Of a DNA stretch of 64,000 nucleotides, positions 10,093 to 44,608 are shown piece after piece (position 1 is the first letter of the stretch; every line of letters begins with the position of its first letter). The notes beneath the pieces are model-generated. The model saw only the letters and a list, made by a program, of their open reading frames with translations, had not been told where the DNA came from and did no database searches. The DNA is from a virus. The stretch spans positions 1-64,000 of IMG/VR virus record IMGVR_UViG_3300046171_000328. One strand, written 5' to 3'. Position numbers and translations under genes: made by a program.

Positions 10093-10937
10093 TGTATACC
10101 TCCAGTGTCATTGATCAGTTATCAGAAGGGCGGTTGAGCTTGATGGAAACAGGCCACGGTTCTTTCATTCCGATGCTCAAGATTCCAAAGTTCAAGCAGA
10201 CAGCCATCGACATCACTTTTCCTGATGACCCGTTTCCAGCCTTTATGGTCGATGGAGTTGAAGTTAACGAGATTTACATTTCTCAGTTTAGTTATCCCTG
10301 CATCGCCAGATCAGCACCCACAACGAGTGTTAATCTTGCAGACGCACGCACGCACGCGACGGCTCTGGGTTCAGGATTCCATTTGATGAGTGCATGGGAG
10401 TGGGCCGCATTGGTCTGGCATTTCAAGGAACATTGGGGCACTGAAAAAGGGCCAGTGATGGAAGACTCTTCCCGCAGTTTGGGTAGCGGGACATTTTTCT
10501 GGAGAATGCCTGCTGAGTGGTGGGGCGCTTGGGGGCTGACAGGTAATCTCTATGAATACTGCGACGGTGTTGAGTTGAGAAGCGGCAAGGTTTACGGACC
10601 ACTGGAGAACAACATCTCCAATTACAACACCACAGACGCTCTAGATGCCACGCTGTGGCCTGAACTTGGCGAGGTGACCTCTCATGCCAATAAACCACTA
10701 AACGAATCCCCTGTGATCGGTTCTCCACTTCAGATGATGCTTCTGAACGCTGCCTTGGTAGTCAATCCGCCGTTGGGTCAAACCTTTGCGTTGGATTCGG
10801 CAGGATCGTTGATTCTAGAGCGTGGTGGAGCGTATCATTCCGGCGAGGAAGCCGGTCTGGGAAATTATCGATTTACCAATCCAGCAACCTCTACGCAGTC
10901 CGACTCAGGTTTTCGGGTTGCCTACATTGCCCCATAG
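10092..10937 (+). CDS. C-type-lectin / formylglycine-generating-enzyme-fold tail protein
   Basis: 281 residues; the start overlaps the previous stop (TAATG). Recognisable pieces of the FGE/CLec fold are VDGVEVNEIYISQFSY (substrate-like strand), LMSAWEWAALVWH, WGLTGNLYEYCDG (the family's GNVWEW position) and the end RGGAYHSGEE ... SGFRVAY (the family's RGGSW...GFR). Phages use this fold as a receptor-binding tip, in some cases diversified by a reverse transcriptase (Mtd-like). No reverse transcriptase is seen here. Position after the collar fibre supports an adhesin role; enzymatic FGE activity is unlikely. Confidence 0.7.
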   Translation: MYTSSVIDQLSEGRLSLMETGHGSFIPMLKIPKFKQTAIDITFPDDPFPAFMVDGVEVNEIYISQFSYPCIARSAPTTSVNLADARTHATALGSGFHLMSAWEWAALVWHFKEHWGTEKGPVMEDSSRSLGSGTFFWRMPAEWWGAWGLTGNLYEYCDGVELRSGKVYGPLENNISNYNTTDALDATLWPELGEVTSHANKPLNESPVIGSPLQMMLLNAALVVNPPLGQTFALDSAGSLILERGGAYHSGEEAGLGNYRFTNPATSTQSDSGFRVAYIAP

Positions 10938-10946
10938 GAGTTCCCC

Positions 10947-11843
10947 ATGTTTGATTTTGATTTTTTCGGCACTGATTATTTAAAGGGCCAAACCGACCTT
11001 TTGACAGAGGCCTTAGAAATCAAGGCCAGTAATATGACCAAGGCCCGTTTTGAGAGTTTTCTGAAGAAGACCTTTCTCAAAACGTCAGACAAGGTCTTTT
11101 ATTTGAAGGGTGAAGAGGGTCAAGAGGGTAAATATACTTACAAGTACAAATCTTTTCCAGCGCTGGATATTCTAGATGTTTCCATGCCGAGTAAGCCCAA
11201 GCGCGAACTCAATGCGTTCACCAGAACGGAGTTGCAGTCCTTTCGGGTGAAGGTCAAGTGTTCTCACAACATCCGCTTGGACTTTCTGGTCCAGTTTGAA
11301 TCAACCATCAAGGGAGCAAGGCTTTCGGCCAGCACCAGAGGCTTTATCTCTGAGGTTAAAATCAACAACCAGCCCATTCGCCTCTCAAGGTCTGAGATGG
11401 ACACTGAGAAGGCCGCTACCGCCTCTGGCCTGAAAGCCGTAATCACAAAGGTCAGGGCTGGCTTGAAGGCCGCTTATGATGAATTGGGGCACAAGAGCGC
11501 AAAACAAGTAAAAAAACAGGAAGGCGGAGGTTCTAAAGGTGAAAACGAAAAAGGCGGACTGAGCCGAGAGCAAGAGAAACTACGCAGGAAAGTAACCGAT
11601 GGTCAATCGGAAGAAGAACGTGAAGGCCGCCAGAAAAAACGGGCCAAGTCGATTAAAAAACAACATGAGGCTGTGAAAGCTGAAAAGCAGGAACTGCAAA
11701 AGAAGCTGGAGCAGAGGAAGCGTGAGGTAGAAAGCATTGGAAGCTCCGGTGACGGACTTCAAAGTCAAATTGACCAAATGCAGGAATACAAGGCACGACT
11801 GCAACAACAGTTGGAGTCTTTACGGTCAACGCAGGCCGCTTAA
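10947..11843 (+). CDS. Unknown protein with C-terminal coiled coil
   Basis: 298 residues, with TAGGAG 6 bp before the ATG. An acidic start (MFDFDFFGTDYLKGQTDLL) leads to a globular part (about 60-160, with FRVKVKCSHNIRLDFLVQFES) and then a Lys/Glu/Gln-rich region from about 185 that should be a long coiled coil. The next gene opens in a similar way (MFTDIFENIDYG) and also has a globular part followed by a coiled coil, so the two may be distant relatives. No known family recognised. It begins the run of large proteins around the methyltransferase-helicase. Confidence 0.65.
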   Translation: MFDFDFFGTDYLKGQTDLLTEALEIKASNMTKARFESFLKKTFLKTSDKVFYLKGEEGQEGKYTYKYKSFPALDILDVSMPSKPKRELNAFTRTELQSFRVKVKCSHNIRLDFLVQFESTIKGARLSASTRGFISEVKINNQPIRLSRSEMDTEKAATASGLKAVITKVRAGLKAAYDELGHKSAKQVKKQEGGGSKGENEKGGLSREQEKLRRKVTDGQSEEEREGRQKKRAKSIKKQHEAVKAEKQELQKKLEQRKREVESIGSSGDGLQSQIDQMQEYKARLQQQLESLRSTQAA

Positions 11844-11861
11844 TCAAACTGGAGAAGGGAT

Positions 11862-14192
11862 ATGTTCACCGACATCTTTGAAAATATCGATTACGGCGTC
11901 ACCAGCGTTGATTTGACTCTTGATGATGAGTTGAAGCCGAGGGTGTTGCCAATCCTTGATGAAGGCCGTTACGGCAAGGACCTGCCAGAGGAGCAGATTA
12001 TTGCAGAGTGGCTAGAGATCATTGCCGAGGAAGACAACGAATTTCTGGCAGGAGAGCCAGACTTGTTGGTTGAAGACTACGATTGGGGCGATCCGCTGGA
12101 AGGCCAAGCACTGGTCTTGGAGAATCTGTCCATTAAATACAATGAATTCCGCCAGCGCATGAAGCGCTTTCAGAGCAAGATCAATAACAATTCAACCCTC
12201 AAAGTGGTCAAGATCGATGGGCCGCAAGGCACAGCAAAGAACGGCGACCTTATTCGGCCACAGCGCAAATTCGGCGTGGTTTTACAGCGAGTGATCTGGC
12301 ATTTAAATGACGGTCAAACAATCACAGCCGTGTTTGAAGTGGAAGGTGCAGACGGTTTGATGCTCAAAGATGAGCATGTACTTTCCAGTTTCATTTGGAA
12401 GATCAACGGCATTGACATCACCCGATTTCTTTTCAAGAGCCTGACCGTAGACGATGAAAGAGGAGGTGGACGAGGCCTGACAGAGCGGCAACTAGCCCAG
12501 CGCTTGGGGCGCTACGTTGAGCAGAATGCTGAAAACTTTGCCAAGAAAAAAGCAGGTAATGATGCAGCAAGAGCAGAGCTTGATGCCGATACTGCAGAAG
12601 TGGATCGATTGACACAAGAACTCGACACGCTCAACAAAGGCAGTGAGCAAAGCGAAAATAAGAAAGTCTTTCAAGAGCAGCAATTGGAGCGCTTGGGTAA
12701 GGACATCGAAGACTTGAAGCGCCAGATTCGGGAAGCTGGTGGTGTGCCTGATGGAGATGATGAAGAAATTGCTCCACCGCCCCCACCACCAACTGATGAA
12801 GAAGAAATCACACCCCCACCACCTGAAGAGGAAGAAGAAGAGTTTGACGAGCTTGACCCAGCAAACTATACGGGTCTAGAGAGCGTCGATAAATTGGTAA
12901 ATCATCCAAGCGTGGTCCAATCTCTGACAAATCTCAATAATGCTCTAGTAGCCATTGGCATGGAGAATTTGAATCCTACAATATTTGGTAGGTCACCTAG
13001 TGCAGGGGGAGATGTTTTCACTCTGCAGATTTACCTTAAAGAATTAATTGCACGATCTACAGAAAGCGGAGAGAGCCTTGATCTGGATGATGCTCTTGGA
13101 TTCATAATAGAAATGCTCAACAACAGAGGACTAGATTTCTTCAGTGATCCAATTAGTAACTATATGAAAGACAACGGTTTAGGTTTCTTCAACCTCTATG
13201 AAATAAGTGGAACGATCAATAATGTTGTATTCCACCTAGATAGAGATCTCTTGATGAGAATTCATTCACAGCTAGATACTGGTGAAACTGAAGAAGAGGA
13301 AGAAACAGATTCAAGATATGTCAATTTCCCAGAGTATGCTGCGCTCTTCGATAAGGGTGATGCCGTAGAATGGTATCGCGTAGGTGGCGATACTTGGGAA
13401 AAAGGAACGTATCAGGGAGTGGATACTGATGGCCGAGCCTTAATTACTTGGGAAGGAGGGGGAGGTAGTGCCCCATTCAGTGTTTACCACAACCGAATGA
13501 GCTTGAGGCCAGATGTTGATTTTGATCGTGGTGGAGATAGGCGAAATGTTCTCGATAACTTCCTCCAGTCAGTCAGTGAAATGAACAATCAGATTCTGCA
13601 AAAAAAAGCAGGACCAATCTATGATTCATTTTACAGTGCAGCCGCAATGTTACTCCGCTATCACAATCAGTCAGTTGCTGGTTCTGGTATCGGTGAAACT
13701 GTAACCATGGAAGAGATGATTGAGATGCTTCGTGAATCTGTCCATGACCGGATGGAAGCTGCACATGATAAAGCAAACGCAACTTATGAGAAATTGCTCC
13801 CTGAAGTCATTACAGCCAGTGTCTTATTCGCTTTGGGACAGCAGGTAAGAGAAATGGCCAATGAGTACGAAATGGATACAGGACAAATCGATGTGATCAA
13901 AAATCAACAAACAGGCGCATACGAATATAGCTACACTGCTGATGATCTGGGTGACAACAGTGATGATGATGTAGAGCCAGACGAAGTGGAACCCGATGAA
14001 GTAGAACCTGATGAGACAGACAGCGGTGGTGGTGATTTAGAAGCTCAAGTCAATGAAATTCTAAAATCCGAAGATCCTGTCTACATTGCCGACATGCAAG
14101 AAGAATTGGAGGACGCACTTGAGGCGGCTGGCCGTGAAGACTTGCTTGATGCGATGGATGAGCGAATGAACGAACTTTCCCAAAGAGACTAA
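11862..14192 (+). CDS. Large acidic coiled-coil protein, unknown
   Basis: 776 residues, ribosome site GGAGAAGGG. Layout: globular head (1-200), heptad-rich coiled coil (about 215-295), proline/glutamate linker (about 300-330, runs of PPPPPP and EEEEEE), helical domain, a small beta module (KGDAVEWYRVGGDTWEKGTY, about 500-530) like Tudor/SH3-type barrels, another helical part and an acidic tail with the repeat VEPDE. The composition and neighbours recall phage proteins packaged with DNA next to DarB-like enzymes, but no specific function can be assigned. Confidence 0.65.
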   Translation: MFTDIFENIDYGVTSVDLTLDDELKPRVLPILDEGRYGKDLPEEQIIAEWLEIIAEEDNEFLAGEPDLLVEDYDWGDPLEGQALVLENLSIKYNEFRQRMKRFQSKINNNSTLKVVKIDGPQGTAKNGDLIRPQRKFGVVLQRVIWHLNDGQTITAVFEVEGADGLMLKDEHVLSSFIWKINGIDITRFLFKSLTVDDERGGGRGLTERQLAQRLGRYVEQNAENFAKKKAGNDAARAELDADTAEVDRLTQELDTLNKGSEQSENKKVFQEQQLERLGKDIEDLKRQIREAGGVPDGDDEEIAPPPPPPTDEEEITPPPPEEEEEEFDELDPANYTGLESVDKLVNHPSVVQSLTNLNNALVAIGMENLNPTIFGRSPSAGGDVFTLQIYLKELIARSTESGESLDLDDALGFIIEMLNNRGLDFFSDPISNYMKDNGLGFFNLYEISGTINNVVFHLDRDLLMRIHSQLDTGETEEEEETDSRYVNFPEYAALFDKGDAVEWYRVGGDTWEKGTYQGVDTDGRALITWEGGGGSAPFSVYHNRMSLRPDVDFDRGGDRRNVLDNFLQSVSEMNNQILQKKAGPIYDSFYSAAAMLLRYHNQSVAGSGIGETVTMEEMIEMLRESVHDRMEAAHDKANATYEKLLPEVITASVLFALGQQVREMANEYEMDTGQIDVIKNQQTGAYEYSYTADDLGDNSDDDVEPDEVEPDEVEPDETDSGGGDLEAQVNEILKSEDPVYIADMQEELEDALEAAGREDLLDAMDERMNELSQRD

Positions 14193-14203
14193 GGAGATTA
14201 ACC

Positions 14204-16642
14204 ATGCAGACCAATCTGATCAAAGAGCAGTTGGACATGGACAGCATAATGCTCTCCTTGCTCCGTTCCGGAAACATCGAAGAAGGCAAATCAAAGTCTC
14301 ATCTCCAAGCGGCAATGATGAAGAAGTTTGGTGATGATCCACTCTACAAAGCCGTGATTATGTCCAAATCCAAAGCTGAAGGCGAGAAAGCTGTGAAGGG
14401 CCTGATCAGCGTGCGTGGGCCACAGGCTATGCAGCAAATGAAAGACTATGCAAAGAAGCTGATGAACGAGTCTGTCGAGGTGGCTTCCCCACCATCTGAC
14501 CAAACACCAACTACCGTTGACAGCACGCTCAAGGGGGGCACGGTTGCACCACAGCAGACCAACAGCGCTCCAGACATGGAAGGCCGAGAAGTCGAAAAGA
14601 ACGACTTGGGGCCAGAGGCTGATGGCAAGGAGATTGATGCTGTGAGCATGAAAACTGGCGGTGATATTACCCAACAAGGACCTGCGCCAGACAATCAAGG
14701 GCGTGAAGAAACACAGGAGACGATGGGAGAAATGGCTCCAGAAGAGTCTCACTTGGAAGCTCCCAAGGATCATACACCCACGACTGTTGACAGCACCATG
14801 AAAGGCGGAGCCGTGGCTCCACAGGCCACACAAGCTGCGCCAGACATGCAGGGGCGTGATCAAGGCGGAAATAGCAAACTGGATGAGAACTTTGGGCGCT
14901 ACAACACCAATCACTCAACCCTGACTGCCGCCGTGGGACATGCACGCGATGTCGTGGGCAAAAAGGGCTTTACGATAGATGATGATGACTGGTTCCGTGA
15001 GATCTCCACAGGGCCTCGTAAGCCGGTGGAAGGAGCAACGAATAGGTATACACTCCAACTGATGAAAAACGGTGAGTATACCAATGATTATTTGCACATG
15101 CAGATCTATGGACAGCGCCGAGGATACGAATTGAACATGTATGGTTCCAAGGCTCCCAAGTCACGCAAGAAAATCAGGGAAACTACCGAATCGATTTCTG
15201 AAGAGTCTACAACGGAAATTACTGAGAAATTAGATCGCAAGGAGCGGCGGGAAATTGTCCGCAGAATTGCTGAGAACAAAGCTAGCTTGCCCACCACTTC
15301 AGATCGTAAAGAAAAACGTGAATTGGTGCGTGCGATTGCTGCAGACAAAGCCTTGCTTAGAGGCGAAATACCGGCAGGAGAAGCGTCTGAAACACCCACC
15401 TTCGATGCGTTGGTCCGAGGTGACTTTGACCAGATGGACTATCAGGAATACCTCAAGAAGCTGGATGCGGCTTTTGCTGAGATCAATGAAGTCAATCCGT
15501 TGAAAGACCCAGCGATTCGTTATGTTCGAACTCAATACAATAAAGCCGTTCAGGAGGGCCTTGCTATGGCTGATTCACTAGATCAGGTAGAAGAAAAAAT
15601 GATGGCAGTTCTGGAATCTATTGGGGACCAGCGCCAGTCTCAGGAAATGATGATAGACGAAGAAGACGAGATTGAAGAGGCTGCTGGTGCAAAAACTCAA
15701 TACGACAAAGGCCAAATCTCAAAGAAAGAAATGCAGGCAATGAAAGCCAAGGCTAAAAAACTTTTTGATGATGGACAAATTACAAAGAAAGAAATGCAGG
15801 CAATGTGTGAAGGCATGGAGTCTATCGCCGAAGCTGCTGATGAAAAACCAAAGAAGAAAACTTCCAAGGACACCGCAAACGTGGATGAGGATGAATTGGA
15901 AGAATTTGAAGATGACCAAGGTGATGTAGACAAAAAAACAGACGTGAAAAAGGATCTTGGCAAGGACAAGAAGAAGAAAGATGTCAAGGAGTCTTCACTG
16001 CTGGAGAGAGCCAAGGCGGCCAAGCAAGAGCTTCTGGAGTCTCAGGAAGAGCCAGAGCCGACTGATGAAGAGATCCAGACTCAGGCAGCTACCACACTGG
16101 CAATGGTGAAAGAGCAAGCTGCTAAAGAAGCCAGAGAGGCTTTGCTGATTGAACTCTACAGCGTAGACATCATCAGTGACGAAGTGCTTGAAAACTATGC
16201 AGAGCAAGAAGGCGAAGGAATCAACTACGCCGAAGGCGAAGAGCCAAACATTGAAAACATGCCGATGGTGGGTGAAGGAATCAATCCTCGGTTCTTGATT
16301 CGTGACAAAGAAAGCGGAGAAGTCTTTGAATCCAATCTGACCATGGAGCAAAGTCAGGCGCTCTTTGAAAAGCTCAACAACGTCAGCCCTGACCGATTTG
16401 TTGAAGAAGTGGACCGAAGTGTTCAGGAGGGGTTCCGCAGGCGTAGAGGCGGCTACAGCAATGATCCACGCATGATCACGGTTAAGTATCCGACAATGTG
16501 TCGAGAGACTAAAAAGCCTTTGAAGAAGGGCGATCAGGCATTGTACTACCCAAATGATAAGACCTTCTACCATCCAGATTCAAAGACCGCACAAGACTAC
16601 CGAGAAAGGATGGACGATGAAATGATGATGGGTGGCTACTGA
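14204..16642 (+). CDS. Large acidic repeat-containing protein, unknown
   Basis: 812 residues, strong AAGGAG site. It contains two near-identical 31-residue units at 14498-14590 and 14768-14860 (TPTTVDSTLKGGTVAP and TPTTVDSTMKGGAVAP, each ending APDM.GR). It also has a pair of lysine-rich repeats around 15244-15345 (DRKERREIVRRIAENKA / DRKEKRELVRAIAADKA) and a pair at 15700-15816 (KKEMQAM units). The C-terminus (MITVKYPTMCRETKKPLKKGDQALYYPNDKTFYHPDS) looks like a small folded domain. Low-complexity acidic linkers dominate. No enzymatic motif seen. Confidence 0.65.
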   Translation: MQTNLIKEQLDMDSIMLSLLRSGNIEEGKSKSHLQAAMMKKFGDDPLYKAVIMSKSKAEGEKAVKGLISVRGPQAMQQMKDYAKKLMNESVEVASPPSDQTPTTVDSTLKGGTVAPQQTNSAPDMEGREVEKNDLGPEADGKEIDAVSMKTGGDITQQGPAPDNQGREETQETMGEMAPEESHLEAPKDHTPTTVDSTMKGGAVAPQATQAAPDMQGRDQGGNSKLDENFGRYNTNHSTLTAAVGHARDVVGKKGFTIDDDDWFREISTGPRKPVEGATNRYTLQLMKNGEYTNDYLHMQIYGQRRGYELNMYGSKAPKSRKKIRETTESISEESTTEITEKLDRKERREIVRRIAENKASLPTTSDRKEKRELVRAIAADKALLRGEIPAGEASETPTFDALVRGDFDQMDYQEYLKKLDAAFAEINEVNPLKDPAIRYVRTQYNKAVQEGLAMADSLDQVEEKMMAVLESIGDQRQSQEMMIDEEDEIEEAAGAKTQYDKGQISKKEMQAMKAKAKKLFDDGQITKKEMQAMCEGMESIAEAADEKPKKKTSKDTANVDEDELEEFEDDQGDVDKKTDVKKDLGKDKKKKDVKESSLLERAKAAKQELLESQEEPEPTDEEIQTQAATTLAMVKEQAAKEAREALLIELYSVDIISDEVLENYAEQEGEGINYAEGEEPNIENMPMVGEGINPRFLIRDKESGEVFESNLTMEQSQALFEKLNNVSPDRFVEEVDRSVQEGFRRRRGGYSNDPRMITVKYPTMCRETKKPLKKGDQALYYPNDKTFYHPDSKTAQDYRERMDDEMMMGGY

Positions 16643-16667
16643 TCAATTAACTAGCACTGGAAAAGCA

Positions 16668-19600
16668 ATGTCTGAAACAACTTTTACACCTCCAGCCGGT
16701 GTCGCTTCTGCCGCTAAGAGAGGTTTAGAGCTACGCCGAAAATTCAAACGTGGGGGGACCAGCGTTGGTGCAGCAAGGGCAGGCCAGCTTGCCAACAGAA
16801 ATCCAGTATCTGCTTCCGTGATCAAGCGCATGGTTTCTTTCTTTGCCAGACATGCGGTGGATGCGGAGGGTAAGGATTGGAACAACGAATCCAAACCAAG
16901 TAACGGGAAAATTGCGCATTTGCTTTGGGGCGGATCGGCGGGAAAGGCATGGGCTAATGCCATGGCCAAGAAAATCGACTCAGGGAATAAGAGCGTCAAA
17001 GAGGAGTACGAGAAAGGACTTGCTCTAGATCTGTTTGAAGAAAGATTTGCTGATCAGTTAATTTACGAAGAAACCTACCGTGAGCCTGAGTCTCAGGCAA
17101 CGAGTCGCATTGAACGAGTGAAGAGTCTTGGACAACTAAAAAATGCCATTCGGATTGCCTTTGCCTCTACCGATGACATCCAAGCACAACTGAACACTCC
17201 GATTTCTGAATATCCATTCAAACGCTCTGGAAGTTTCTTAGGCTTTGATCAAAAACCACTCACTGGGGGGCAACGTGAGGCTATCAACAGGGAGATCCTG
17301 CCGCTATTAGAAAAACCTTCCGATGAACTTACAGATGCCGAGCGAGATCTAATTCGCCAGTATAGTGGTTTTGGTGGGACCAGTGGAGAAATTGAAGGTT
17401 CCAGTAATGTGGAAAGCGGAGTTGAATACGATTTTTATACTGCTAGTCCCGTGGCTCTATTTCAAGCCAAGCTGGTCAACAAGCTGGTGCAGATCAAACA
17501 AGGTGACCGTATCTTGGAACCTTCCTGTGGTGCAGGCGTTTTCTTTGATGTGCTACCTGATGGAGTTGAAAAGATCGGTGTTGAACTCGACAGCCGCACA
17601 GCGGCGGTAGCTCAGAGGATTCATGGTGATTCGGTAGACATTCGCAATCAACCGATGGAGCTTTACCACCTTGAAGGAAATCCAGAGGTGTCAATAATTT
17701 TGGGGAATGCTCCCTTTGGACCCCGTGGCGACATCAAGCTACGAAATGCTGATGATCCGAAGGAAGGCAATCTGGATCGGTACTTTCTCAAGCGCTGTTT
17801 GATGCAGATCAAGTCAGGCGGAATGATGTGCCTGCAGGTCCATAGCGGTGTCTTCCACAATCCAACCAACCGTGACTTTCGTCTAAAGCTGTTGCTGCTG
17901 GGCAAGTTCATGGGGGCTGTGAGGCTTCCAAACACGTCCTATGCCCATACTGGCAGCAACTTCGCCTCTCCGGACATCCTTATCTTTCAGCGTCATGACG
18001 AGCCATTTAAGAAGGCTCTGCAGCGAGTCTTTCATTCCAACCTGACGGAAGAAGAAATTACAACGCTATTGACCGCTTGTGGGCTGATGAATGACGCTTG
18101 GCTCAATGGGGCCAAGAAATACTACATTGCCAATCGCCGGCACATGCTGGGAGAGGAAGTTGAGATTCCCGCCAGAGGTCGCACCACACGGGGAGAATTG
18201 CGTGCCGAAATTCTGGATGAGATCTGGAGCAAGTTTAAGTTTGAAGAGTATCCGGAAGTCAACGCTGAACCACTGAACTCCGAGTTGATCAGGGGCACAG
18301 AAGAAAAGAAGCCGGCCACAGATCGAATGATGCTCACACCCGATGAGCTTATCCTGCGTATGGATCGCCAGATCCGCACAGGCGCAACGAAAATTGTAGA
18401 TGGCAACCTCTACATTCTGCGTGCTTCAACCGGTGTCAATGCGGTAGATGGAGAGTCTGAGGATCGGCCTTACTGGCAGTTGATCAACATTGCTGGCATT
18501 GCCGACAAGGTGGCTGCCATCAACTTGATTGCAGATTCTGTTTCCAAGCTACGGGCTTTGTTTCATGGCAATGACCCAAGTGTGACAGACAAACAAAAAG
18601 CGATCATTGAAGCTCTGAAGGCTTATCAGAAAAAGTTTGGTGTTGCTCTCTTTGAAGATCCTGCTGTGCAGGGCTTGATCAAGCAGTATCCGGACATCGA
18701 AGGCATTATTGAGGCAACGACTCTGCAGGAGAGCAGGCAAACTGAAGACGGCGGGGAGGACCGCTATTGCTATTTGCTGAGTGCCGAGCCACCAGATGAC
18801 AGCGGTGAAGAGTTTTCCGGCAACCGTCCAGAAGTTGAGTTTCTGCGCAAGAATCGGCAGATGATGGGCAAGATGACCGAGCAGGCGGTGATTGGTCTGC
18901 TGGGGGCAGAAGCAGGCCAAGACATGCTGAGATTGCTCTTTGAGAGCAAGTTTGTGTTTCCAGAGTTGGTAGATGGAAACTTGGTCTTTGTCCTCAAGGA
19001 GAACTATCTGGTGGGCCGTGTGACGGTTCTGAGAGCCAAGCTGGAAGAAGAGCGAGAGTCAGCTACTTCAGAGGCATGGCGCGGCAAGTTTGCGCAAGCA
19101 CTGGCCGAGTTGGAAAAGGCCAGAACCTTCAGTGAGTATGACAACATTGATGTTCAGATGAATTCAAACTTCATCAAGAATGATCAGATACAGCGCTACC
19201 TTGATCAGACGATCAATGCCAACCTCTCAGAATTTCTCAAAGATGAAGATGATCGTGGGATTTCTTCAGCACACACCAACGACTACAGCGTTTATCAATT
19301 CGACAAGGACAATCTCCGGATTACAGCACGGATGCTGCCTGATGACATCGATGGTAACGAACAAAGTTTCAATGATTGGGATGAACTCTTCACCAAATTC
19401 CGTGAAGGCCGCAAAAACATTCAAGCCTCATTGCCTGAACAACTGGAAGACTATACCAACGACCGCATGAAGGCTATTTACAATGACTTTTCGTACTATA
19501 ATCGGCACGATACAACCCGTCTCGGCAGTTTGAATGGAGTTCGACTCGTATTGCGGAATTTTGGTGAAGATCAGGATCTCACCACCTTTCGGGCATCCAA

Positions 19601-22600
19601 AGTCCAAGCTGAGTACAGCCGTGAATTTGTCTGGTCTGTGGAGTCTACAGCACAGCAAAAGCCACAAGTTCAGGAATTGCTCAACAAAAAAATTGAAGAA
19701 GGCGTAATTGAAGCGGGTGAGTACATTTACTATGACGAACTGCAGGATCGAATTTTCTCTGGTCAGATGAACAATGTGAAAGGTTTTATCATTCCGAATG
19801 ACCGACGATATGGTAATTCTGCAGAACAGCCATTTGGCTCCAAGAAAAACGGGGCACATGCCACGAAGTATCTCAACAACCTCAACCGCATGTTAGCCGG
19901 CGGAAAGCCGGTGATTAAGAACCAAGCGGACAAGTTGGCATTTGAAAAAGACTTCCATCAAAACTTCCGTGACTGGTTGGATGAAAATGACAATGAACAA
20001 CGGGTAGTTGAAAAGTCATATGATGAACGCAACAACGATGTTCTGAAGACTTCCAATATGGACTATCCAGTGGAGATCAAGGGCTGGAACTCCAAGGTCC
20101 AGTTGCGCTCTGTGCAGTGGCAGGCCATTCACCACTTGCTCAAAGGCCAAAAGGGAATTGCGGCCTTGGGTGTTGGTTTTGGGAAAACACTGGCCGCTGT
20201 GGGCCTCACAGGCGTATTGCTCCAAGAGAAGAGAGCCAAGCGTGTTTGGTGTCAGGTTCCCAACAACAAGGTCAAGGACTGGTCTGAAGAGTATAAGTTG
20301 GGCTTGCCCAATATAGAGTTGCTTTCTGCAAAGCCAGAGGATGCCAAAAACAAGCAGACTCGGATGAAGATTCTGAATCAACTGGCCAATGGGAATGCCT
20401 CGGTTTTGGTTATCCCCGAAACGATTGGCACAGAGGTTCAGCTTTCAGCAGCAAAGGACGAAGAAATTGTTGAGATCCTTTTTCAGGATCAAATGCAATT
20501 TGTCACTGACGGCTCTCCAAAACAGCGCAAGACCTATGCAACGAACTTGCGCAAGACTCTGGACACTTCCCAAGCACGCACAGCCAGTATCAATTTTGAA
20601 GAGTTCAAGTGTGATGCAATCATTGTTGATGAGTTGCACCGTGAAAAAGCGCTCTTCAGTCCCTACCGAGTCAACACGCAAATCAGCCAACTGAACAAGA
20701 ACGCTGATTCCACACGAGGCATCAGCCTGCTCAAGAAAGAAGAATATCTGCGTCAAACCAATCCGAAGGGCAAGCCGAACACCTACGGATTGACAGCCAC
20801 ACCGATGACCAATTCTCCCTTAGAATTCTGGAACATGTTAGCGCACATTGACGCCGAGGCTCTGAGGGCCAACGGCATCAACGACTTGGGGAGCTTTGTA
20901 CGCCAGTTCTGCATTCTTCGGATGGAAATGCAACCGAACACCACAGGCGAGGGGTTGGTTGCACGACAGGTCCTCAAGGGCTTCAGAAACCTCGACCTGC
21001 TCCGCAAGGTATTTTATGACGTAGTAGACTACCAAGTCAGCCGAGAGGCGCTGGAAGCCGACTCCGAGTCCACATCAGGCGAAAAGGGGCGCAAGGCGGA
21101 AGTCCATGATGAAACACTTGCTCCAACACAAATGCTGCAGGACGTAACAGCATTCTTGAGAGCGCAGTATGAAAACCCCGAACTGGAAGAAGGGGAAGAG
21201 GAGGAGATGGAGGTTGAGGAAGGTGAAGAAGAGCAGGAAGAAGGGGTTGCAGCACAGACGGTAGACCAGAAACGCCGTGAGATCTGGCAGGACCTGCAGA
21301 CCGCCGCTCTGGACTTGGAGATGCTCGACCCTGTCAAGTACAAGGATGCCCCCAACAGTAAGCTCGACAAGATGATTGAGAACGTGATGAAGCATTGGAC
21401 GGAATCGGGTAGTGGCCAGTTGATTTTCTGTGACCGGATGAATGCTTCCAGAGGCCGTGGGGATGGGACTTACAATCTGCATGAAAAAATCAAAACACAC
21501 CTGATTGATGCTGGTTTTCCGGCCAATAAAATTGCTTTGGTCAATGGGGCCGTCAAGGGTGCAGGAGACAAGCTATCCAAGGCTCAAGCACGGAAGATGG
21601 GTTCCTACATCGACCAGACCTGCGAAAAGTACAATGCCGGCGAACTGCGCCTGTTGATTGGCAACACGCCGTGTATGGGCGAAGGGTTGAACCTGCAGGC
21701 TGACAGTATTGCTGTGCATCACTTTGACATTCCGTATCGCCCTTCAGATTTGGTGCAGCGCAATGGTCGAGTAGACCGGCAGGGCAATAAGCAGATGACT
21801 ACTCATCTTTACAACTATAGCACTGCTGGAACTCTAGACAGCTACTCACTGGTTCAAATCAAGCTCAAGGCAAACTGGCTTCAGGAATTACTCCAGTCCG
21901 ATGTGACCGTCTGGGAGAATCCAGAAACAGATGCGTTGGCCAATGATCCACTAACGATTCAGATTTTGTTGGCTGAGTCTGCTGGTGATTTGGAAGCTCT
22001 GGAAGACTTGAAGATGCGAAGGGACCTGATCGTGACTCAGGCAGAGCGCAAGCAACGTGAAATCGATGCTGCAGACAACTTCAAGTCTCTCAACATTGCC
22101 ATGAATGCAATGCTCAAGATGGAGCCAGATACACCGGAATATCGCAATGCGATGAAGCGTGTCAATAAGTTCAGGCGGGTTCTCAGGGACAATCCTGAAT
22201 TCAAGATGCAGGAGCTACTGGAGGAGGACGCTGAACCGTTTATGATTTGGGGCAAACCCAAGAACGTCAAAGCAGCCGCACTTCGCAACGGAAGAACCGT
22301 GATCCGCAAGGGTGATTACTACCACAACCTGCGAGGGAATCTACAGTCGTACTGGAAAGTTGTCGGTTTTGCTCCATCCACTCAAAAAGTCTTTTTGGAA
22401 GCAGTCAGTGAGTATGAGCCAAAGAAAGATCCTGATGATGAAAATGAACCGTTGCGACCACGCAAGGGGTATTTCTATGCCCTAGATGATCCGCCGTATG
22501 ATGGAAGTGCTAAAAATCTTGATCAACGAGGAAACTTCAAAAAAGTCCCCAGAGCGATGCTGGACCCAGAAACGATGGCGACTTTGGCAGCCACCACCAA

Positions 22601-23366
22601 AGGGGCAATGCAGGAAATGAGTGTCGATCAGCAGGTCAACGTTGTTCAAGCCATGCTGATGACGAGGTTGACCGATGAAGACGATACGTTTGCTATACGG
22701 AACTGGTTCAGAGACACACTGAACCAGAACAATATTGATCCAAAATTCTTGTTGAATGGTCAATACTATGCCGTGGTTTACGGCAATGACATCTATTCTG
22801 GCAAGCCACTCCCTGCTGGCTCTGAAGGCTCTGAAGGCCTCAGAGAAGAATATGGCAAAGCCCTCACCATGCAGGGATTTATTCTACAAGGTTACCACAT
22901 CAAAGACCGATATGCTGACCATGAGAAATTCGCCAGACACCTATTCAAACATGGAGAGAGTTCTAAAATCTTGACACCACCACTGGGCGAGACTCCAGAG
23001 AAGTTCTCCTCTCACCTGATAAAATACATTCAGAAATTACGGACGAGCGCAGCCTTTCAACTGACAGCATCCCGTGATGATTCGAAGGATTTCCGCGAAA
23101 TGCTGACCAATGATAATGACTTCATTCAGTGCTGGGCCGAGCATCTTGAACTCTTTGCCAGAACGTATGGCAGAAAGGTGATGAGTCAGGGACGTGGCAG
23201 TGGAAAGCCGGATACCCAATGGGACCGCTTCTACTTTGAGTTGTTCATGCCTCTGTCGATGCGCTCCAGAGATTTCCATGATGCCTTGACAGAATACATT
23301 CGTGGGAAGTACCCAAATAAAGATGAATTCGACTTTAACGGCAAAACGTCATATAAGTTCTTTTGA
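16668..23366 (+). CDS. Giant N6-methyltransferase / SF2 helicase fusion, DarB-like
   Basis: About 2232 residues from ATG 16668 (a GTG at 16632 is an alternative). The N-terminal about 90 residues (SAAKRGLELRRKFKRGGTS ... LLWGGSAGKAWAN) form a small helical domain I have seen attached to many phage virion-linked proteins. The methyltransferase follows: motif I EPSCGAGVF at about 283 and motif IV as GNAPFG at about 345 (NPPF-like with Ala). The helicase has Walker A GVGFGKT (about 1167), DELH (about 1320), GLTATPMTN and QRNGRVDRQG (about 1697). P1 DarB has this MTase-plus-helicase layout, enters with phage DNA and protects it from type I restriction. That role is inferred here. Confidence 0.85.
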   Translation: MSETTFTPPAGVASAAKRGLELRRKFKRGGTSVGAARAGQLANRNPVSASVIKRMVSFFARHAVDAEGKDWNNESKPSNGKIAHLLWGGSAGKAWANAMAKKIDSGNKSVKEEYEKGLALDLFEERFADQLIYEETYREPESQATSRIERVKSLGQLKNAIRIAFASTDDIQAQLNTPISEYPFKRSGSFLGFDQKPLTGGQREAINREILPLLEKPSDELTDAERDLIRQYSGFGGTSGEIEGSSNVESGVEYDFYTASPVALFQAKLVNKLVQIKQGDRILEPSCGAGVFFDVLPDGVEKIGVELDSRTAAVAQRIHGDSVDIRNQPMELYHLEGNPEVSIILGNAPFGPRGDIKLRNADDPKEGNLDRYFLKRCLMQIKSGGMMCLQVHSGVFHNPTNRDFRLKLLLLGKFMGAVRLPNTSYAHTGSNFASPDILIFQRHDEPFKKALQRVFHSNLTEEEITTLLTACGLMNDAWLNGAKKYYIANRRHMLGEEVEIPARGRTTRGELRAEILDEIWSKFKFEEYPEVNAEPLNSELIRGTEEKKPATDRMMLTPDELILRMDRQIRTGATKIVDGNLYILRASTGVNAVDGESEDRPYWQLINIAGIADKVAAINLIADSVSKLRALFHGNDPSVTDKQKAIIEALKAYQKKFGVALFEDPAVQGLIKQYPDIEGIIEATTLQESRQTEDGGEDRYCYLLSAEPPDDSGEEFSGNRPEVEFLRKNRQMMGKMTEQAVIGLLGAEAGQDMLRLLFESKFVFPELVDGNLVFVLKENYLVGRVTVLRAKLEEERESATSEAWRGKFAQALAELEKARTFSEYDNIDVQMNSNFIKNDQIQRYLDQTINANLSEFLKDEDDRGISSAHTNDYSVYQFDKDNLRITARMLPDDIDGNEQSFNDWDELFTKFREGRKNIQASLPEQLEDYTNDRMKAIYNDFSYYNRHDTTRLGSLNGVRLVLRNFGEDQDLTTFRASKVQAEYSREFVWSVESTAQQKPQVQELLNKKIEEGVIEAGEYIYYDELQDRIFSGQMNNVKGFIIPNDRRYGNSAEQPFGSKKNGAHATKYLNNLNRMLAGGKPVIKNQADKLAFEKDFHQNFRDWLDENDNEQRVVEKSYDERNNDVLKTSNMDYPVEIKGWNSKVQLRSVQWQAIHHLLKGQKGIAALGVGFGKTLAAVGLTGVLLQEKRAKRVWCQVPNNKVKDWSEEYKLGLPNIELLSAKPEDAKNKQTRMKILNQLANGNASVLVIPETIGTEVQLSAAKDEEIVEILFQDQMQFVTDGSPKQRKTYATNLRKTLDTSQARTASINFEEFKCDAIIVDELHREKALFSPYRVNTQISQLNKNADSTRGISLLKKEEYLRQTNPKGKPNTYGLTATPMTNSPLEFWNMLAHIDAEALRANGINDLGSFVRQFCILRMEMQPNTTGEGLVARQVLKGFRNLDLLRKVFYDVVDYQVSREALEADSESTSGEKGRKAEVHDETLAPTQMLQDVTAFLRAQYENPELEEGEEEEMEVEEGEEEQEEGVAAQTVDQKRREIWQDLQTAALDLEMLDPVKYKDAPNSKLDKMIENVMKHWTESGSGQLIFCDRMNASRGRGDGTYNLHEKIKTHLIDAGFPANKIALVNGAVKGAGDKLSKAQARKMGSYIDQTCEKYNAGELRLLIGNTPCMGEGLNLQADSIAVHHFDIPYRPSDLVQRNGRVDRQGNKQMTTHLYNYSTAGTLDSYSLVQIKLKANWLQELLQSDVTVWENPETDALANDPLTIQILLAESAGDLEALEDLKMRRDLIVTQAERKQREIDAADNFKSLNIAMNAMLKMEPDTPEYRNAMKRVNKFRRVLRDNPEFKMQELLEEDAEPFMIWGKPKNVKAAALRNGRTVIRKGDYYHNLRGNLQSYWKVVGFAPSTQKVFLEAVSEYEPKKDPDDENEPLRPRKGYFYALDDPPYDGSAKNLDQRGNFKKVPRAMLDPETMATLAATTKGAMQEMSVDQQVNVVQAMLMTRLTDEDDTFAIRNWFRDTLNQNNIDPKFLLNGQYYAVVYGNDIYSGKPLPAGSEGSEGLREEYGKALTMQGFILQGYHIKDRYADHEKFARHLFKHGESSKILTPPLGETPEKFSSHLIKYIQKLRTSAAFQLTASRDDSKDFREMLTNDNDFIQCWAEHLELFARTYGRKVMSQGRGSGKPDTQWDRFYFELFMPLSMRSRDFHDALTEYIRGKYPNKDEFDFNGKTSYKFF

Positions 23367-23389
23367 ATAATCTTTTTTAGGGGTGAAAA

Positions 23390-23824
23390 ATGGAAGTAGA
23401 CCCAGTCACTGGAATGCAGCACCGCTATGATCTCGCAACTTTGCGAGAGGGTGTGGACCGCATCGAAATTCCTCACACACAATTCCTCAACGATAAAGCC
23501 CGAAACATTGCCGAAATGTTGCGCAATGATCCCAAGTGTCATGAGCGCTTTGGTATCTACTGGTTTGTGATCAAGGAACTCTTGGTCAATCGGGCTTATG
23601 ATTCAGACGCATGGTGGCGTTTCAACAGCCGCAACGATTACATCTACGAACTGACAGACCGTGGTGACGAATTGCTGAGTATTTTGCAGGGGCTTTACTA
23701 CTTTGAAGAAAACTGGTCTGCCACGGCATCACAATACTACTACCGAGACGGTGTGGCGTGGCACTACTCTGTCACCGATGAAGACTTTTTGAATTCTGGT
23801 GCAGGCGTGGAGCTTCCATCATGA
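23390..23824 (+). CDS. Unknown protein between two giant helicase genes
   Basis: 144 residues, ribosome site AGGGG 8 bp upstream. It is rich in aromatic residues (YYFEENWSATASQYYYRDGVAWHYS) and acidic, with no recognised domain. Its stop overlaps the start of the next helicase gene (ATGA), so translation is probably coupled. The tight placement suggests a partner of one of the large helicases. Confidence 0.6.
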   Translation: MEVDPVTGMQHRYDLATLREGVDRIEIPHTQFLNDKARNIAEMLRNDPKCHERFGIYWFVIKELLVNRAYDSDAWWRFNSRNDYIYELTDRGDELLSILQGLYYFEENWSATASQYYYRDGVAWHYSVTDEDFLNSGAGVELPS

Positions 23825-26800
23825 GCATTGTACTGATTGAACGTGCCCGAACCTACACTCGCCTGCGGGATGCCGTGGAGGGGATGATTCGTCCCACACC
23901 ACCCACGACACCGCACCTGAAGGCCGCCAGAGCGGCTTTGGATACCGATGCGACTCGTTACCTGCGTTTGCGTTTGAGTGGCATACGGGACGATGAGGCA
24001 ATGGCAGGGCCTGATGGGGATTATGCGGACGAAAGTGACACGATGCCACTGGAGACACTAGCTTCTCAGAATTTTGAGCTATTGACTGGTGAAATGGCTG
24101 GTGGTGTTCGCAAAAACAAAGTTGGGAACTTGCTTGAACAGGCCTACCACCGTGCAAATGAACTAGGGAAACCTGTCTATATTTTTGCGAAGTCTGCTCC
24201 TACAGCCCAGATTCACAAGGGCTTGGACTATCGATTGACCGATGAGTTCACCGATTGGCAAAAGTACGCCTACCATGGCGAATACATGGGCTACGAAGTG
24301 TTTCCACGGGGCATGGTCCGTAAGCTGACCACCAAGCCAAATGTTGAACAGTTGAGCCGCATGGACAACTCTGACACCCGCATTTCGTTGGATATTTTCC
24401 GCAGCTACAACCAACTAGAGGCTTTCCATCTAGCGGCTCTGCCAGAGTTGATCGAAACGACAGCCGGCGAACTGCACAGCTTGGGTGATGAAGGGCGTGC
24501 CTTGGCTTTTGAAGTCCAAAGTTTTCTGGAAGATTCCGATGGGATGATCATTCATCCATCGATGGCCCGAAGCGGTGGTATCAGTGATCGGGATCTGGCC
24601 AGAGCCAAAAAAGAAATGGACAGAGACAACTTGGACAATCCCGATGCTCACTGTGAGGACCTCTTGCGTGGGACGCTACCTCCAGAGGCTCTAAAAGAGC
24701 GCAAGTTGGCTGTTTTGGAAGTGATGAACAACTATGTCATGAACTTGGGGAGTTTGCCGGCAGCGATCAATGGATTTGGCCAGAACTATTTTAAATTACC
24801 TGTCAGTGATGCCACCTTCCGCAAGATCTGTTTGCACATGCGTTTTGCTGTACCCTTTGGGGCACGTCTAAAGTACGCCCTGTCGTACTTGACCAGAGTC
24901 CGTAGCGGTCAGCCGGCTTTTTGGAAAAGGCCGCTGATGGATGCGCTGGACCGTCTAATCAAGGAAGAAAGAGCCAAGCCGTCAATCTTCAAACCACAGC
25001 ACAGCGAAGACATTCTCTCCATGTACTTGGGAGAGTGGGAAAGCCTGACACATCAAAGAATGCAGGATGTCGAAGTATCCTTGATCTGGGATGCCTACAA
25101 GGGCAATGGAGATGCCCAGATTGGAGCCTTACCTGAGAACATGGAAGTCAATCAATGGACCAGAGAGCTAAACAATCGCATCATTCCGGTGATGGAAAAG
25201 AATGAACCGAATTATCGGGAACTGCGCAGATACCTAGAGTCCAAAGAACTCAGCTATGCTTATGATCTAGAAATTTTCAAAAAACGCTACGAACGAGGTG
25301 ACGATGCAGGAAACGAATCAGGAATTGTTTCTGGAGACGGAGGAGGAGACTTCGACTTTGGAGACGGAGGAACAACAAGCCTCAGTAAGCGAGAGATTCT
25401 GGGCAGGGCTGATGTGGAAAAACGTTATCGAGACGCAGGAGTCGCACTCACTCGACGCGAAATATCAGGCATCACCAAAACTCAACACCTTTCCGAGCTT
25501 TATGCTCGAACTCTGAAAACGCACCAGAACGACGGGTGCAACCTGATCTTGGAAGCACATCAAAAGAGCAAGGGGTTTGTACTGGCCGATGGCACAGGTG
25601 CAGGCAAGACGATGCAGGAGCTTGCGGTAGCCCTGCACTATTCCGATATGGGCAAGATGGTGCTGGTGGTAACCAAAGACAAGAAAGTGATTCAGGGAGC
25701 ATTCCGTGGTGATTTTCAACGTTTTGAAACCAATCAGGAGCGCTTGGAGCATCTGCCGGATGCAGCACAACCGTTTGACTCCAACAACATCTACATCACC
25801 ACTTACAACCGACTGCATGAAGCACGACAACATCAATGGGACATTGTTATTTTTGATGAAGCACATGCTGCTAAAAACCTGATTAATAGTAACCCATCTG
25901 CACAAGCTCAATATGTAGTGGAGTTGATGGACAAGGCAGAAAAAGTAGTTTGTGCTACAGCTACGCCTGCCGACAAGGGCTACCAGATGGCCTACCTGTG
26001 TAGAATGTGGGGGATTGACCCATATATGATGGTTCAACGCATGGGCTTGGAATTTGATCCAACCTTTGGCTGGCAATCTGGCGAAGGCCTAGACAAAGAA
26101 TCACAGGCTGGCATTGAAGCCAACATCATGCAGGACTTCATGCGAGAGGCCACGAAAAAAGGCTTGATGGTCAAACGTGAAGTATCCATGGCCAACTTGG
26201 ACTATATCAATCAGCAAATTGAATTGTCACCGGATTGGCGTGCCATGTACGAAGCACTCAATCGGCACTACCAACAGTTGTGGCAAATGGCTAAAGGCAT
26301 TGCCAAGGGAACCATCAAAGGGCAGTGGATGCTGAATGTGCGACGCTTACTGGACATTGCCAAGGCCGAGGCCGCAGGTTTTGCGGCTCTGGATGAACTC
26401 AAGGCAGGTCGCAAGGTGGTGGTCTTCTCTTGTGCAGTGGAAGACACACAGGACATTGCCGAGCAGATTCAAAGCGAACGTGCTGCAATGTACGAAATGA
26501 CGGATGAAGAAATTGATGAATCGATCAATAAATTACGGGGCAAGGCCACAACAGGTCGAGTTAGCGATATGATTCAACAAGCTGGTTATCGGGTCTTTGA
26601 GATGACAGGGAAAAGAACTGACAAACAGCGCAATGCGGCAGTAGCCCAATTCCAAGCTGGTGAACTGGATGCCATCGTTACGACTTTTGACTCTGGAGGA
26701 ACCGGCATCAATCTAGACGATACTGTTGGAGATTCCCCCCGTAGCGTGGTGATTACACAGCCACCGTTTGGGGCCAATGATGTGATTCAGGGCCTTGGCC

Positions 26801-27654
26801 GAGTCAATCGCTTGACCACCAAGAGCCGTGCAAAGGCTATTCAGCTAATGACCAATCTGGCAATAGACGATTGGAACCAGAGCTTGGTGGCAACCAAGCT
26901 GCAACGCTTGGGAGGGGCTGTTGGGGGTGATTATGGTAAAATTGATCTAAACAAGATTGCAGACCTCGACAACGGTGAAATTCAGAAGTATTTGCGGGAA
27001 TCTGGTGTTCCTTCACGCCGACCAATTCCCGTGGGCAGTGATGAAGATGAGCCAGACGTAGGGGATGCAGGAGATCGTGAACTTCCCCCAGAATGGTTCA
27101 CTATTCCTGAAGACTTGGCTGATGCCGTTGATCAGCTAGAAATGAAAGCGCCCTTTGAACTGATTCGTGATGAGGCTTACCCCTACTTGGTCGATGCGAC
27201 TTTCTACAGTATTGGGGCCTTGCCCAATCCGATACTGAAATATGGCCCAGATCGTGGGTCCTTGATGTTTGATAACTTTGAGCGTGGGTGCTACATCGCT
27301 TCAAAGACTCTGAACAAAACCATGGAAGAGATCTCACACCGTATTCGCAACGGTTCTTTTGTGGTGGTCCCTGCGCCAGCAGAGATTCCGGATCTGGTCG
27401 AATATTATCTGGTCAAGTGTGAGAAAAAAGACCGTGAATTAGTACAATCTCATGGAGGTGTTTACGATGCTGACTCCAAGCTATGGAAAGTCCCTGTTGA
27501 ACGTTGGCCCAATCTTGATGATGAAGCACGATCCAAAAATGTGGTCATACTTCAAGTCAAGCAAATTTCAGAAGGAATTCAGAGACATCAAAAAGCAGTG
27601 AGGAATGCTGAGTTCATTCCTGTGATCGACCTCGGCGGTTATCAGGGCTATTAA
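23821..27654 (+). CDS. Giant SF2 helicase (strawberry-notch-like polyvalent protein)
   Basis: 1277 residues. The first about 500 residues contain no known catalytic motif. The helicase core has Walker A GTGAGKT (about 597), DEAH (about 678, IVIFDEAHAAKN), CATATPADKG (about 716) and a C-terminal RecA lobe ending in QGLGRVNRLTTKS (about 990). This set resembles strawberry-notch-type SF2 enzymes found in large phages. Near the C-terminus, KDRELVQSHGGVYDADSKLWKV resembles a DUF5710-type module. The protein may act on incoming phage DNA together with the methyltransferase-helicase; that is inference from adjacency. Confidence 0.8.
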   Translation: MSIVLIERARTYTRLRDAVEGMIRPTPPTTPHLKAARAALDTDATRYLRLRLSGIRDDEAMAGPDGDYADESDTMPLETLASQNFELLTGEMAGGVRKNKVGNLLEQAYHRANELGKPVYIFAKSAPTAQIHKGLDYRLTDEFTDWQKYAYHGEYMGYEVFPRGMVRKLTTKPNVEQLSRMDNSDTRISLDIFRSYNQLEAFHLAALPELIETTAGELHSLGDEGRALAFEVQSFLEDSDGMIIHPSMARSGGISDRDLARAKKEMDRDNLDNPDAHCEDLLRGTLPPEALKERKLAVLEVMNNYVMNLGSLPAAINGFGQNYFKLPVSDATFRKICLHMRFAVPFGARLKYALSYLTRVRSGQPAFWKRPLMDALDRLIKEERAKPSIFKPQHSEDILSMYLGEWESLTHQRMQDVEVSLIWDAYKGNGDAQIGALPENMEVNQWTRELNNRIIPVMEKNEPNYRELRRYLESKELSYAYDLEIFKKRYERGDDAGNESGIVSGDGGGDFDFGDGGTTSLSKREILGRADVEKRYRDAGVALTRREISGITKTQHLSELYARTLKTHQNDGCNLILEAHQKSKGFVLADGTGAGKTMQELAVALHYSDMGKMVLVVTKDKKVIQGAFRGDFQRFETNQERLEHLPDAAQPFDSNNIYITTYNRLHEARQHQWDIVIFDEAHAAKNLINSNPSAQAQYVVELMDKAEKVVCATATPADKGYQMAYLCRMWGIDPYMMVQRMGLEFDPTFGWQSGEGLDKESQAGIEANIMQDFMREATKKGLMVKREVSMANLDYINQQIELSPDWRAMYEALNRHYQQLWQMAKGIAKGTIKGQWMLNVRRLLDIAKAEAAGFAALDELKAGRKVVVFSCAVEDTQDIAEQIQSERAAMYEMTDEEIDESINKLRGKATTGRVSDMIQQAGYRVFEMTGKRTDKQRNAAVAQFQAGELDAIVTTFDSGGTGINLDDTVGDSPRSVVITQPPFGANDVIQGLGRVNRLTTKSRAKAIQLMTNLAIDDWNQSLVATKLQRLGGAVGGDYGKIDLNKIADLDNGEIQKYLRESGVPSRRPIPVGSDEDEPDVGDAGDRELPPEWFTIPEDLADAVDQLEMKAPFELIRDEAYPYLVDATFYSIGALPNPILKYGPDRGSLMFDNFERGCYIASKTLNKTMEEISHRIRNGSFVVVPAPAEIPDLVEYYLVKCEKKDRELVQSHGGVYDADSKLWKVPVERWPNLDDEARSKNVVILQVKQISEGIQRHQKAVRNAEFIPVIDLGGYQGY

Positions 27655-27927
27655 ATGATTGAAGAGCGCAAACTTACTGACTCTGAAAAAGAGGCCAAGG
27701 AGAGCTATTTAAAGCGCTTTAAGAAGAAGGACCGATTCAAGGACAGCAAGGGGAAACTGAATTCACTCAGTTATGCCATCGCCACCAAGTATGCCAAAGA
27801 AGGGAAAAAGTATCCGATGAAAGAGGATTTCACATCAGAAGAATTGGAAGAAATTCTTGAGGGATCGACAGCAGAGAAATCAAACCCAAAGCTGTGGGCA
27901 CAATGCAAGGCAGAAGCAAGCTTCTAA
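27655..27927 (+). CDS. Small basic/charged protein, unknown
   Basis: 90 residues, directly after the helicase stop (TAA ATG). Highly charged and helical (ESYLKRFKKKDRFKDSKGK), with a segment SLSYAIATKYAKEGKKYPMKEDF. Its stop overlaps the next start (TAATG). No family recognised. Small charged proteins ahead of portal genes can be internal virion or DNA-binding proteins, but this is only context. Confidence 0.55.
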   Translation: MIEERKLTDSEKEAKESYLKRFKKKDRFKDSKGKLNSLSYAIATKYAKEGKKYPMKEDFTSEELEEILEGSTAEKSNPKLWAQCKAEASF

Positions 27928-30105: not shown

Positions 30106-30416
30106 TGTTTGTATTTGAAATTGAAAACAAGGACGCAAGGGCACAAATCAGCTTTCCAACAGATGATTACCATGCCCGATCCACCGCAATTACTTCTGGA
30201 GATCCAGAGCTATTGAAAATGTTAGCCGATTGGGTCCCAGCGCAGCTTGGACCCTTTGGACATCCGGTGGCTTGGCCTGATCCCTTTGTGCAGGACTTTG
30301 ACTATGTCCTTTTGGGAGAGCGAGGAAAGCGAGAGTGGCCCTATGCGGCCCGTTTTGTTTCAGGGGATCGTGGAGACTGGTATGAACACAAACTTCCAGA
30401 AGGTATGGTTCCATGA
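30105..30416 (+). CDS. Small unknown protein after the portal gene
   Basis: 103 residues, with starts and stops overlapping both neighbours (TGATG and ATGA). It reads as one small mixed alpha/beta domain (FEIENKDARAQISFPTDDYH; WPDPFVQDFDYVLLGERGKRE). No family recognised. Tight coupling to the portal suggests a virion or morphogenesis role. Confidence 0.55.
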   Translation: MFVFEIENKDARAQISFPTDDYHARSTAITSGDPELLKMLADWVPAQLGPFGHPVAWPDPFVQDFDYVLLGERGKREWPYAARFVSGDRGDWYEHKLPEGMVP

Positions 30417-34110: not shown

Positions 34111-34114
34111 AACC

Positions 34115-44447: not shown

Positions 44448-44457
44448 GCGGAGAGTT

Positions 44458-44485: not shown

Positions 44486-44608
44486 TCTATGACATTAATG
44501 GTGGGGGTGAACGTCATGTTGTTACCGGTGGGTGTGTCATTGGCTATTTATAAGTCAAATTACTATTGAAGCACAAGACTAGATAACAAATAATTACATT
44601 TAGTGTAG

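Follow-up and report, generated by a model that had tools for sequence, protein, structure and literature searches.

Six open reading frames, all on the + strand, occupy positions 10947–27654 of the window, the 64-kb stretch of DNA analysed here out of a 68.5-kb IMG/VR virus record. They encode proteins of 298, 776, 812, 2244, 144 and 1277 aa, so that, as an initial annotation of this island had described, five are longer than 290 codons and two longer than 1200. The gaps between successive frames are 18, 11, −11, 23 and −4 bases. The gene run continues beyond 27654 with a small basic frame, known from the ORF call only, that lies between the last of the six and the portal gene (27655–27927, +), a small basic protein of 175 aa and pI 10.2 matching phrog_14910, a family without assigned function, at 6e-27 (27894–28421, +), a portal protein (Prt; 28375–30105, +), a frame at 30105, a zincin metallopeptidase (30413–32398, +), a frame at 32395 and a prohead protease (Pro; 34049–35026, +). 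From the island to the protease the gaps are no more than a few bases. A scan for terminators and promoters found no excess over shuffled sequences, and transcription of the island and the downstream run as a single unit is plausible. Because the portal, the DdrB-type zincin and the prohead protease share this run, the functional unit passes 27654 and reaches to about 35026. Just before the island, positions 10092–10937 encode a protein whose terminal ...SGFRVAYIAP-type tail is reminiscent of lectin-fold variable tail-tip proteins; no template repeat emerged when this region was compared by BLASTN with the entire record.

The largest protein (16632–23366, +) is a homologue of P1 DarB and belongs to the class of approximately 2250 aa in which a predicted adenine methyltransferase is fused to an SF2 helicase. 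It matches a DarB-type PHROG at up to 1.5e-131 and a DarB-like PHROG at 6e-75, and aligns with P1 DarB in four collinear BLASTP pieces, the best at 1.9e-21. The gene has a GTG start, with an alternative ATG at 16668. In the methyltransferase region (about aa 210–530; 17259–18221, +), EPSCGAGVF and the NAPF of GNAPFG align with EPSAGTGVF and NVPF of P1 DarB, both proteins differing in the second motif from the canonical catalytic NPP(Y/F). The SWI2/SNF2-type helicase region (about aa 1070–1860; 19839–22211, +), identified from Pfam ResIII and Helicase_C matches and from motif alignment, contains GVGFGKT, DELH, TATP and QRNGRVDRQG, which line up with the corresponding columns of P1-type DarBs. 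No methyltransferase or helicase motif has been lost from the 2244-aa open frame, in agreement with the methyltransferase and complete SF2 helicase previously recognized in this protein. In a tree of the methyltransferase–helicase core, the branch of the window DarB measures 3.45 changes per site and lies outside both the P1-like and the PHB04-like clades; inheritance of the Dar cassette with a P1-like head and its acquisition are both compatible with this placement. When viral and genome collections were scanned with the window DarB as a single protein, no close relatives were found.

A packaging-type domain had also been proposed at the N-terminus of the central protein, and this found support in a domain (phrog_2859 type, aa 26–130; 16707–17021, +) common to the N-termini of marine-phage protease–capsid precursors. 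P1 DarB is packaged through a signal within its first 30 residues (PMC9024508). The corresponding stretch of the window DarB lies inside the protein, at about aa 165, and is preceded by this domain of approximately 100 aa. The same domain occurs in 71 phage records, and the window copy is 38–52% identical to the N-termini of protease–MCP precursors and head proteases of other phages. A fused prohead protease–capsid precursor (Pfam Peptidase_S78 and Phage_capsid) begins with it in Roseobacter CRP-811 and Synechococcus S-CBS3. A DUF2213-like protein encoded immediately before the capsid gene of a Vibrio phage likewise has it at the start, and an actinophage carries it within a capsid maturation protease. 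It was found in no other DarB among those fetched, and what is new here is a DarB whose N-terminus carries a domain otherwise located at the N-terminus of the protease or capsid precursors of unrelated phages. The fused domain probably brings DarB into the prohead. DNA binding is an alternative role, because in phage PaBG the domain stands alone and is annotated as DNA-binding.

To the eye, the N-termini of P1-like DarB and DdrB are similar (xxS[hyd]xxE[IL]...), sharing a short helix motif, with modest statistical support, that lies inside the known DarB packaging signal. A common N-terminal capsid-targeting motif was considered and retained as no more than a weak lead: a matrix trained on DarB finds P1 DdrB (shuffle p 0.01) and fails to single out the helicase at 23821, and the N-terminus pair of this helicase and the protein at 32395 ranks only 5th of 1830. 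A published BLAST comparison found no consensus (PMC9024508).

Upstream of darB, the 776-aa protein (11862–14192, +) is a homologue of P1 DarA with a DarA_N fold and a predicted N-terminal prohead-protease site. It matches Pfam DarA_N at 1.7e-8, NCBIfam anti_RE_DarA at 8e-10, which is under the whole-protein cut-off of that family, and P1 DarA at 3.8e-6 by BLASTP, and the best PDB match of its structural model is P1 DarA (9ukm_I, Foldseek E 8e-8). The N-terminus of P1 DarA is removed at LLE68|A and the solved model begins at residue 70 (PMC12810830); LVLE87|NLSIKYNEF of the window protein aligns with LLE68|AISSTRLQL of P1 DarA, predicting cleavage after E87, and a cognate protease is encoded in the same gene run. 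For all window proteins we relied on independent Pfam, BLAST and Foldseek values, as iterated-profile E-values were inflated by entry of the proteins' own sequences into the profile.

Several features of the 298-aa protein (10947–11843, +) suggest that it is probably an Hdf-like capsid-lining protein, an assignment drawn from fold rank, gene position and a C-terminal coiled coil. An iterated profile search found no significant sequence match to Hdf, and hhalign gave a weak match at a GxIxxVKxN hairpin. Models from AF2 were of low confidence, and nothing beyond their fold order and Foldseek rank was considered: the single-sequence model of this protein (pLDDT 50) has the order helix–helix–four strands–long helices, and its top two matches among 350,542 PDB chains were both P1 DarA (9vz0_I, E 6.4e-3; 9ukm_I, E 2.3e-2), the next being at E 0.85. 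The reported fold of Hdf consists of two helices, four strands and long helices (PMC12810830). DarA and Hdf are mutually related, and the gene lies directly upstream of darA, as does that of Hdf in P1, D6 and a Photobacterium phage-plasmid. The flanking proteins had initially been described as acidic and without nameable relatives; the 298-aa protein is basic (pI 9.7), and the second statement is wrong for the DarA homologue and probably wrong for its upstream neighbour.

Between darA and darB lies an orphan gene for an acidic protein of 812 aa (14204–16642, +) without a family match in Pfam and PHROG searches. The P1 capsid precursor is cleaved at AMLE|SVAAEM (PMC9024508), a site that we confirmed in its sequence. 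Sites of the form [LIMV]xE|[ASGN] occur 15 times in the 812-aa protein versus 4.5 expected from shuffles (z +5.1, approximately threefold) and nine times versus 1.6 in the window protease (z +6.2; P1 Pro, z +4.6). In the 812-aa protein, control patterns made by reversing or shifting the site showed no enrichment, and the enrichment is absent from DarB, Ulx, the 23821 helicase and the Hdf-like protein. We infer from this pattern a prohead core or scaffold-like protein that would be degraded at multiple sites by the prohead protease.

Directly after darB, as in P1, the 144-aa frame (23390–23824, +) encodes a protein that is by sequence a homologue of Ulx, matching a Ulx-like PHROG at 1.3e-8 over aa 30–71 and P1 Ulx with 41% identity over 27 aa in BLASTP. 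Further downstream, the zincin at 30413 matches the C-terminal, zincin end of P1 DdrB (aa 823–893; BLASTP, 3e-8), with HEMTH in place of HELGH. BLASTP and iterated profile searches of 30413–32398 detected the zincin part only and not the ParB-like N-terminal part of DdrB; the Photobacterium DdrB likewise matches in the zincin part only. An iterative profile for DdrA matched no window ORF.

The phage itself is related to P1. The window portal is 29.8% identical to P1 Prt over 453 aa (BLASTP, 3e-66) and the window protease 29% identical to P1 Pro over 247 aa (2e-22); with the portal as tblastn query, the records returned were mostly P1-type, and in a tree the portal was placed on a long branch. 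Other window genes match P1 PacB and two P1 tail or baseplate proteins, and the window encodes ParA and a replication-initiation-like protein. The features by which membership of the P1-like phage-plasmids is judged, a P1-family portal, Pro, PacB and baseplate proteins together with ParA and a replication initiator, are all found here. These matches place the element on a deep, very divergent branch of the P1-like phage-plasmids, with an identity of approximately 20–30% to known relatives.

The PacB-like large terminase is spread over two overlapping frames (55735–56667 and 56525–57313) that join near P1 PacB residues 260–265, for which a frameshift, a split gene and an assembly error are options. 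Elsewhere in the window, an AT-richer stretch (43701–45124, − strand) encodes two PAS-fold proteins without an output domain, an unusual pair for a phage; a pyrimidine dimer glycosylase-like gene is followed by a ThyX thymidylate synthase (41018–42417); and a 535-aa protein (52324–53931) with four repeats of approximately 77 aa (DRGxLDPxxDGDLDLL...) separated by proline-rich linkers is followed, at 53993, by a small poly-Ser/Asn protein.

Our favoured explanation, to which we give a probability of about 0.78, is that the island represents the defence-against-restriction (Dar) operon of this deeply divergent P1-like phage-plasmid with one component added. DarA, DarB, Ulx, the portal, the prohead protease and the DdrB-type zincin are homologous to those of P1 by sequence or fold, albeit with only about 20–30% identity to known Dar proteins. 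The initial annotation had suggested that the island may encode a co-injected complex, comparable with P1 Dar/Ddr, that would shield and remodel incoming DNA, which is right in kind; the DarA_N, DarB and Ulx family matches and the adjoining P1-family portal and protease indicate descent rather than mere comparability. It had also considered the complex larger than that of P1, and this holds only through the added second helicase, DarB itself having 2244 aa versus 2255 in P1.

The Dar proteins of P1 reside in the virion head, DarB being packaged via its N-terminal signal (PMC9024508), DarA–Hdf pairs line the capsid (PMC12810830) and protection from type I enzymes is conferred in cis (PMC12810830, PMC9024508, PMC5512222). 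By analogy, packaging and antirestriction may be expected of the window phage. DarA and Hdf would line the capsid from within. The prohead protease would trim DarA and degrade the 812-aa core protein, and the interior would be loaded with DarB, Ulx and the second helicase, DarB entering via its head-precursor domain. On infection, the packed proteins would exit with the DNA, and DarB and the second helicase would bind and translocate on the incoming duplex, with DarB possibly methylating adenines. Type I restriction complexes would thereby be kept from assembling on the DNA, or be stripped off, with or without methylation.

Alternatively, the island could serve mainly in head assembly (scaffold, capsid lining, portal and protease), its Dar homologues no longer having an antirestriction role. 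P1 head morphogenesis requires Hdf and DarA (PMC12810830), and the 812-aa protein resembles a protease-degraded core protein; however, DarB retains every methyltransferase and helicase motif over its full open frame and Ulx has also been retained, which makes this explanation improbable. Ulx is, so far as we know, dispensable for assembly.

The added component under the Dar operon reading is the 1277-aa protein (23821–27654, +), a second giant helicase of probable Strawberry-notch/SNF2 type whose start codon overlaps the ulx stop (ATGA). Matches to AAA_34 (9.9e-13; 48.1 bits versus a 27-bit cut-off), ResIII (5.4e-13), Helicase_C (1.2e-8) and the PHROG helicase family phrog_62 (4e-33) bear out the earlier description of a second SF2 helicase of another subclass. 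Helicase_C_4, a Strawberry-notch-like C-terminal helicase domain, scores 29.1 bits, slightly under its cut-off of 30.5, and the first 560 aa have no Pfam or PHROG family match. Equivalent single-protein scans with this helicase found no close relatives, and tblastn returned no phage record; plasmid matches were set aside as unlinked generic SF2 helicases.

A comparable gene order exists in phages with unrelated heads. In Bordetella myophage vB_BbrM_PHB04, the portal and minor head genes are followed by genes for a DarB-like protein (2097 aa), a Ulx-like protein (7e-26) and a 1518-aa helicase, and then by the prohead protease and capsid genes. A search with an alignment of PHB04-type helicases led us to fetch 74 viral loci, and among these partly redundant loci and four named phages DarB is present in 36, Ulx in 33, the protease in 62 and a capsid gene in 58. 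After clustering of the helicases at 95% identity, DarB–Ulx is directly upstream in 19 of 56 clusters and a prohead protease lies within 10 kb in 49 of 56; at 80% identity, DarB–Ulx is directly upstream in 12 of 47. The giant helicases of these head modules reach 2044 aa and, also in modules that lack DarB and Ulx, are encoded a short distance upstream of the prohead protease. A literature search of partial coverage yielded no mention of this linkage.

The PHB04 cassette and its metagenomic kin thus resemble the window in the order DarB–Ulx–giant SF2 helicase inside a head module, but differ in that the portal is of another family (phrog_12), DarA and Hdf were not detected and only the ATPase core is common to the two helicases. 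The hhalign match of 23821 to the head-module giant helicases of phrog_62 type (P 96.7%, E 4e-10) is confined to this core (aa 583–1043 of 23821) and does not extend to full length or to their N-terminal part of approximately 1000 aa. Since the match covers the ATPase core only, the slot adjacent to ulx may be filled by different helicase subclasses in different lineages.

These observations bear on whether the second helicase belongs to the packaged set at all. That set might comprise only Hdf, DarA, DarB and Ulx, the helicase serving intracellular replication, recombination or transcription recycling and its position between ulx and the portal gene being accidental. The helicase is unique among about 90 P1-type loci, AAA_34 occurs in 0 of 16 other P1-type records and the DarB-trained N-terminal motif finds no packaging signal on it. 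The overlap of its start with the ulx stop codon, the position of a giant SNF2-type helicase right after Ulx in many PHB04-type phages and the proximity of such helicases to the prohead protease in head modules argue against chance placement, and we consider this account unlikely. A different reassignment would direct both helicases at host or other defences, for example by displacing BREX, DISARM or CRISPR complexes, rather than at type I enzymes. Conflict systems commonly carry SWI2/SNF2 ATPases (PMC5512222), and distant matches to DISARM and Dpd helicases occur here. These matches, which we rejected as assignments, fall far under curated cut-offs and reflect a common helicase core, and the proteins encoded alongside belong to the Dar system, which is directed at type I enzymes; we regard such a retargeting as distinctly unlikely.

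Returning to the Dar operon reading, comparison with known systems shows how the island departs from its relatives. The Dar system of P1 (Hdf, DarA, DdrA, DdrB, DarB and Ulx) has homologous DarA, DarB, Ulx and DdrB zincin part, a probable counterpart of the Hdf-like protein, and adjoining homologous portal and protease genes, but is divided between two loci where the window has one putative operon. The window DarB has an extra N-terminal extension of approximately 155 aa that bears the head-precursor domain, a second giant helicase is present, the 812-aa protease-substrate-like gene has been inserted, and neither DdrA nor the ParB half of DdrB was found. A P1-like phage-plasmid of Photobacterium toruni, pCECT9189-2 (NZ_AP024857), has a similarly consolidated order, Hdf–DarA–DdrA–DdrB–DarB–Ulx–portal–protease, but is without a second helicase, and the two DarBs are about 20% identical. 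The Thermus phages Lalka8, 27a and 27b encode a DarB-like and then a Ulx-like protein (PMC11437467) and a PHB04-type giant helicase, the latter located among tail genes at a distance of about 30 kb. Polyvalent methylase–helicase dyad proteins (PMC5512222), of which DarB is the archetype, share the fusion of an adenine methyltransferase to a SWI2/SNF2 helicase, whereas the window adds a second helicase as a separate gene and has an N-terminal domain of head-precursor type.

The recurrence of DarB, Ulx and a giant helicase in this order suggests a three-gene cassette whose products are co-packaged. A bolder proposal, which we hold tentatively and at somewhat below even odds, is that a three-protein machine of DarB, Ulx and a separate giant SWI2/SNF2 helicase has entered the head modules of unrelated phage groups, with the helicase subclass swapped in the window lineage, so that the helicase would be an unrecognised Dar component and the head-precursor domains of DarB would be interchangeable capsid-loading tags. 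If so, the helicase would clear proteins from the incoming DNA or relay along it. To our knowledge, no mechanism by which P1 Dar blocks type I restriction has been established in the decades since its discovery. The linkage of DarB, Ulx and a second helicase in two unrelated head modules provides a candidate partner for Dar and suggests a central role for motor activity, and not for methylation alone. Finally, the fused head-precursor domain is a candidate protein-loading tag, which may be useful for capsid targeting and phage protein delivery.
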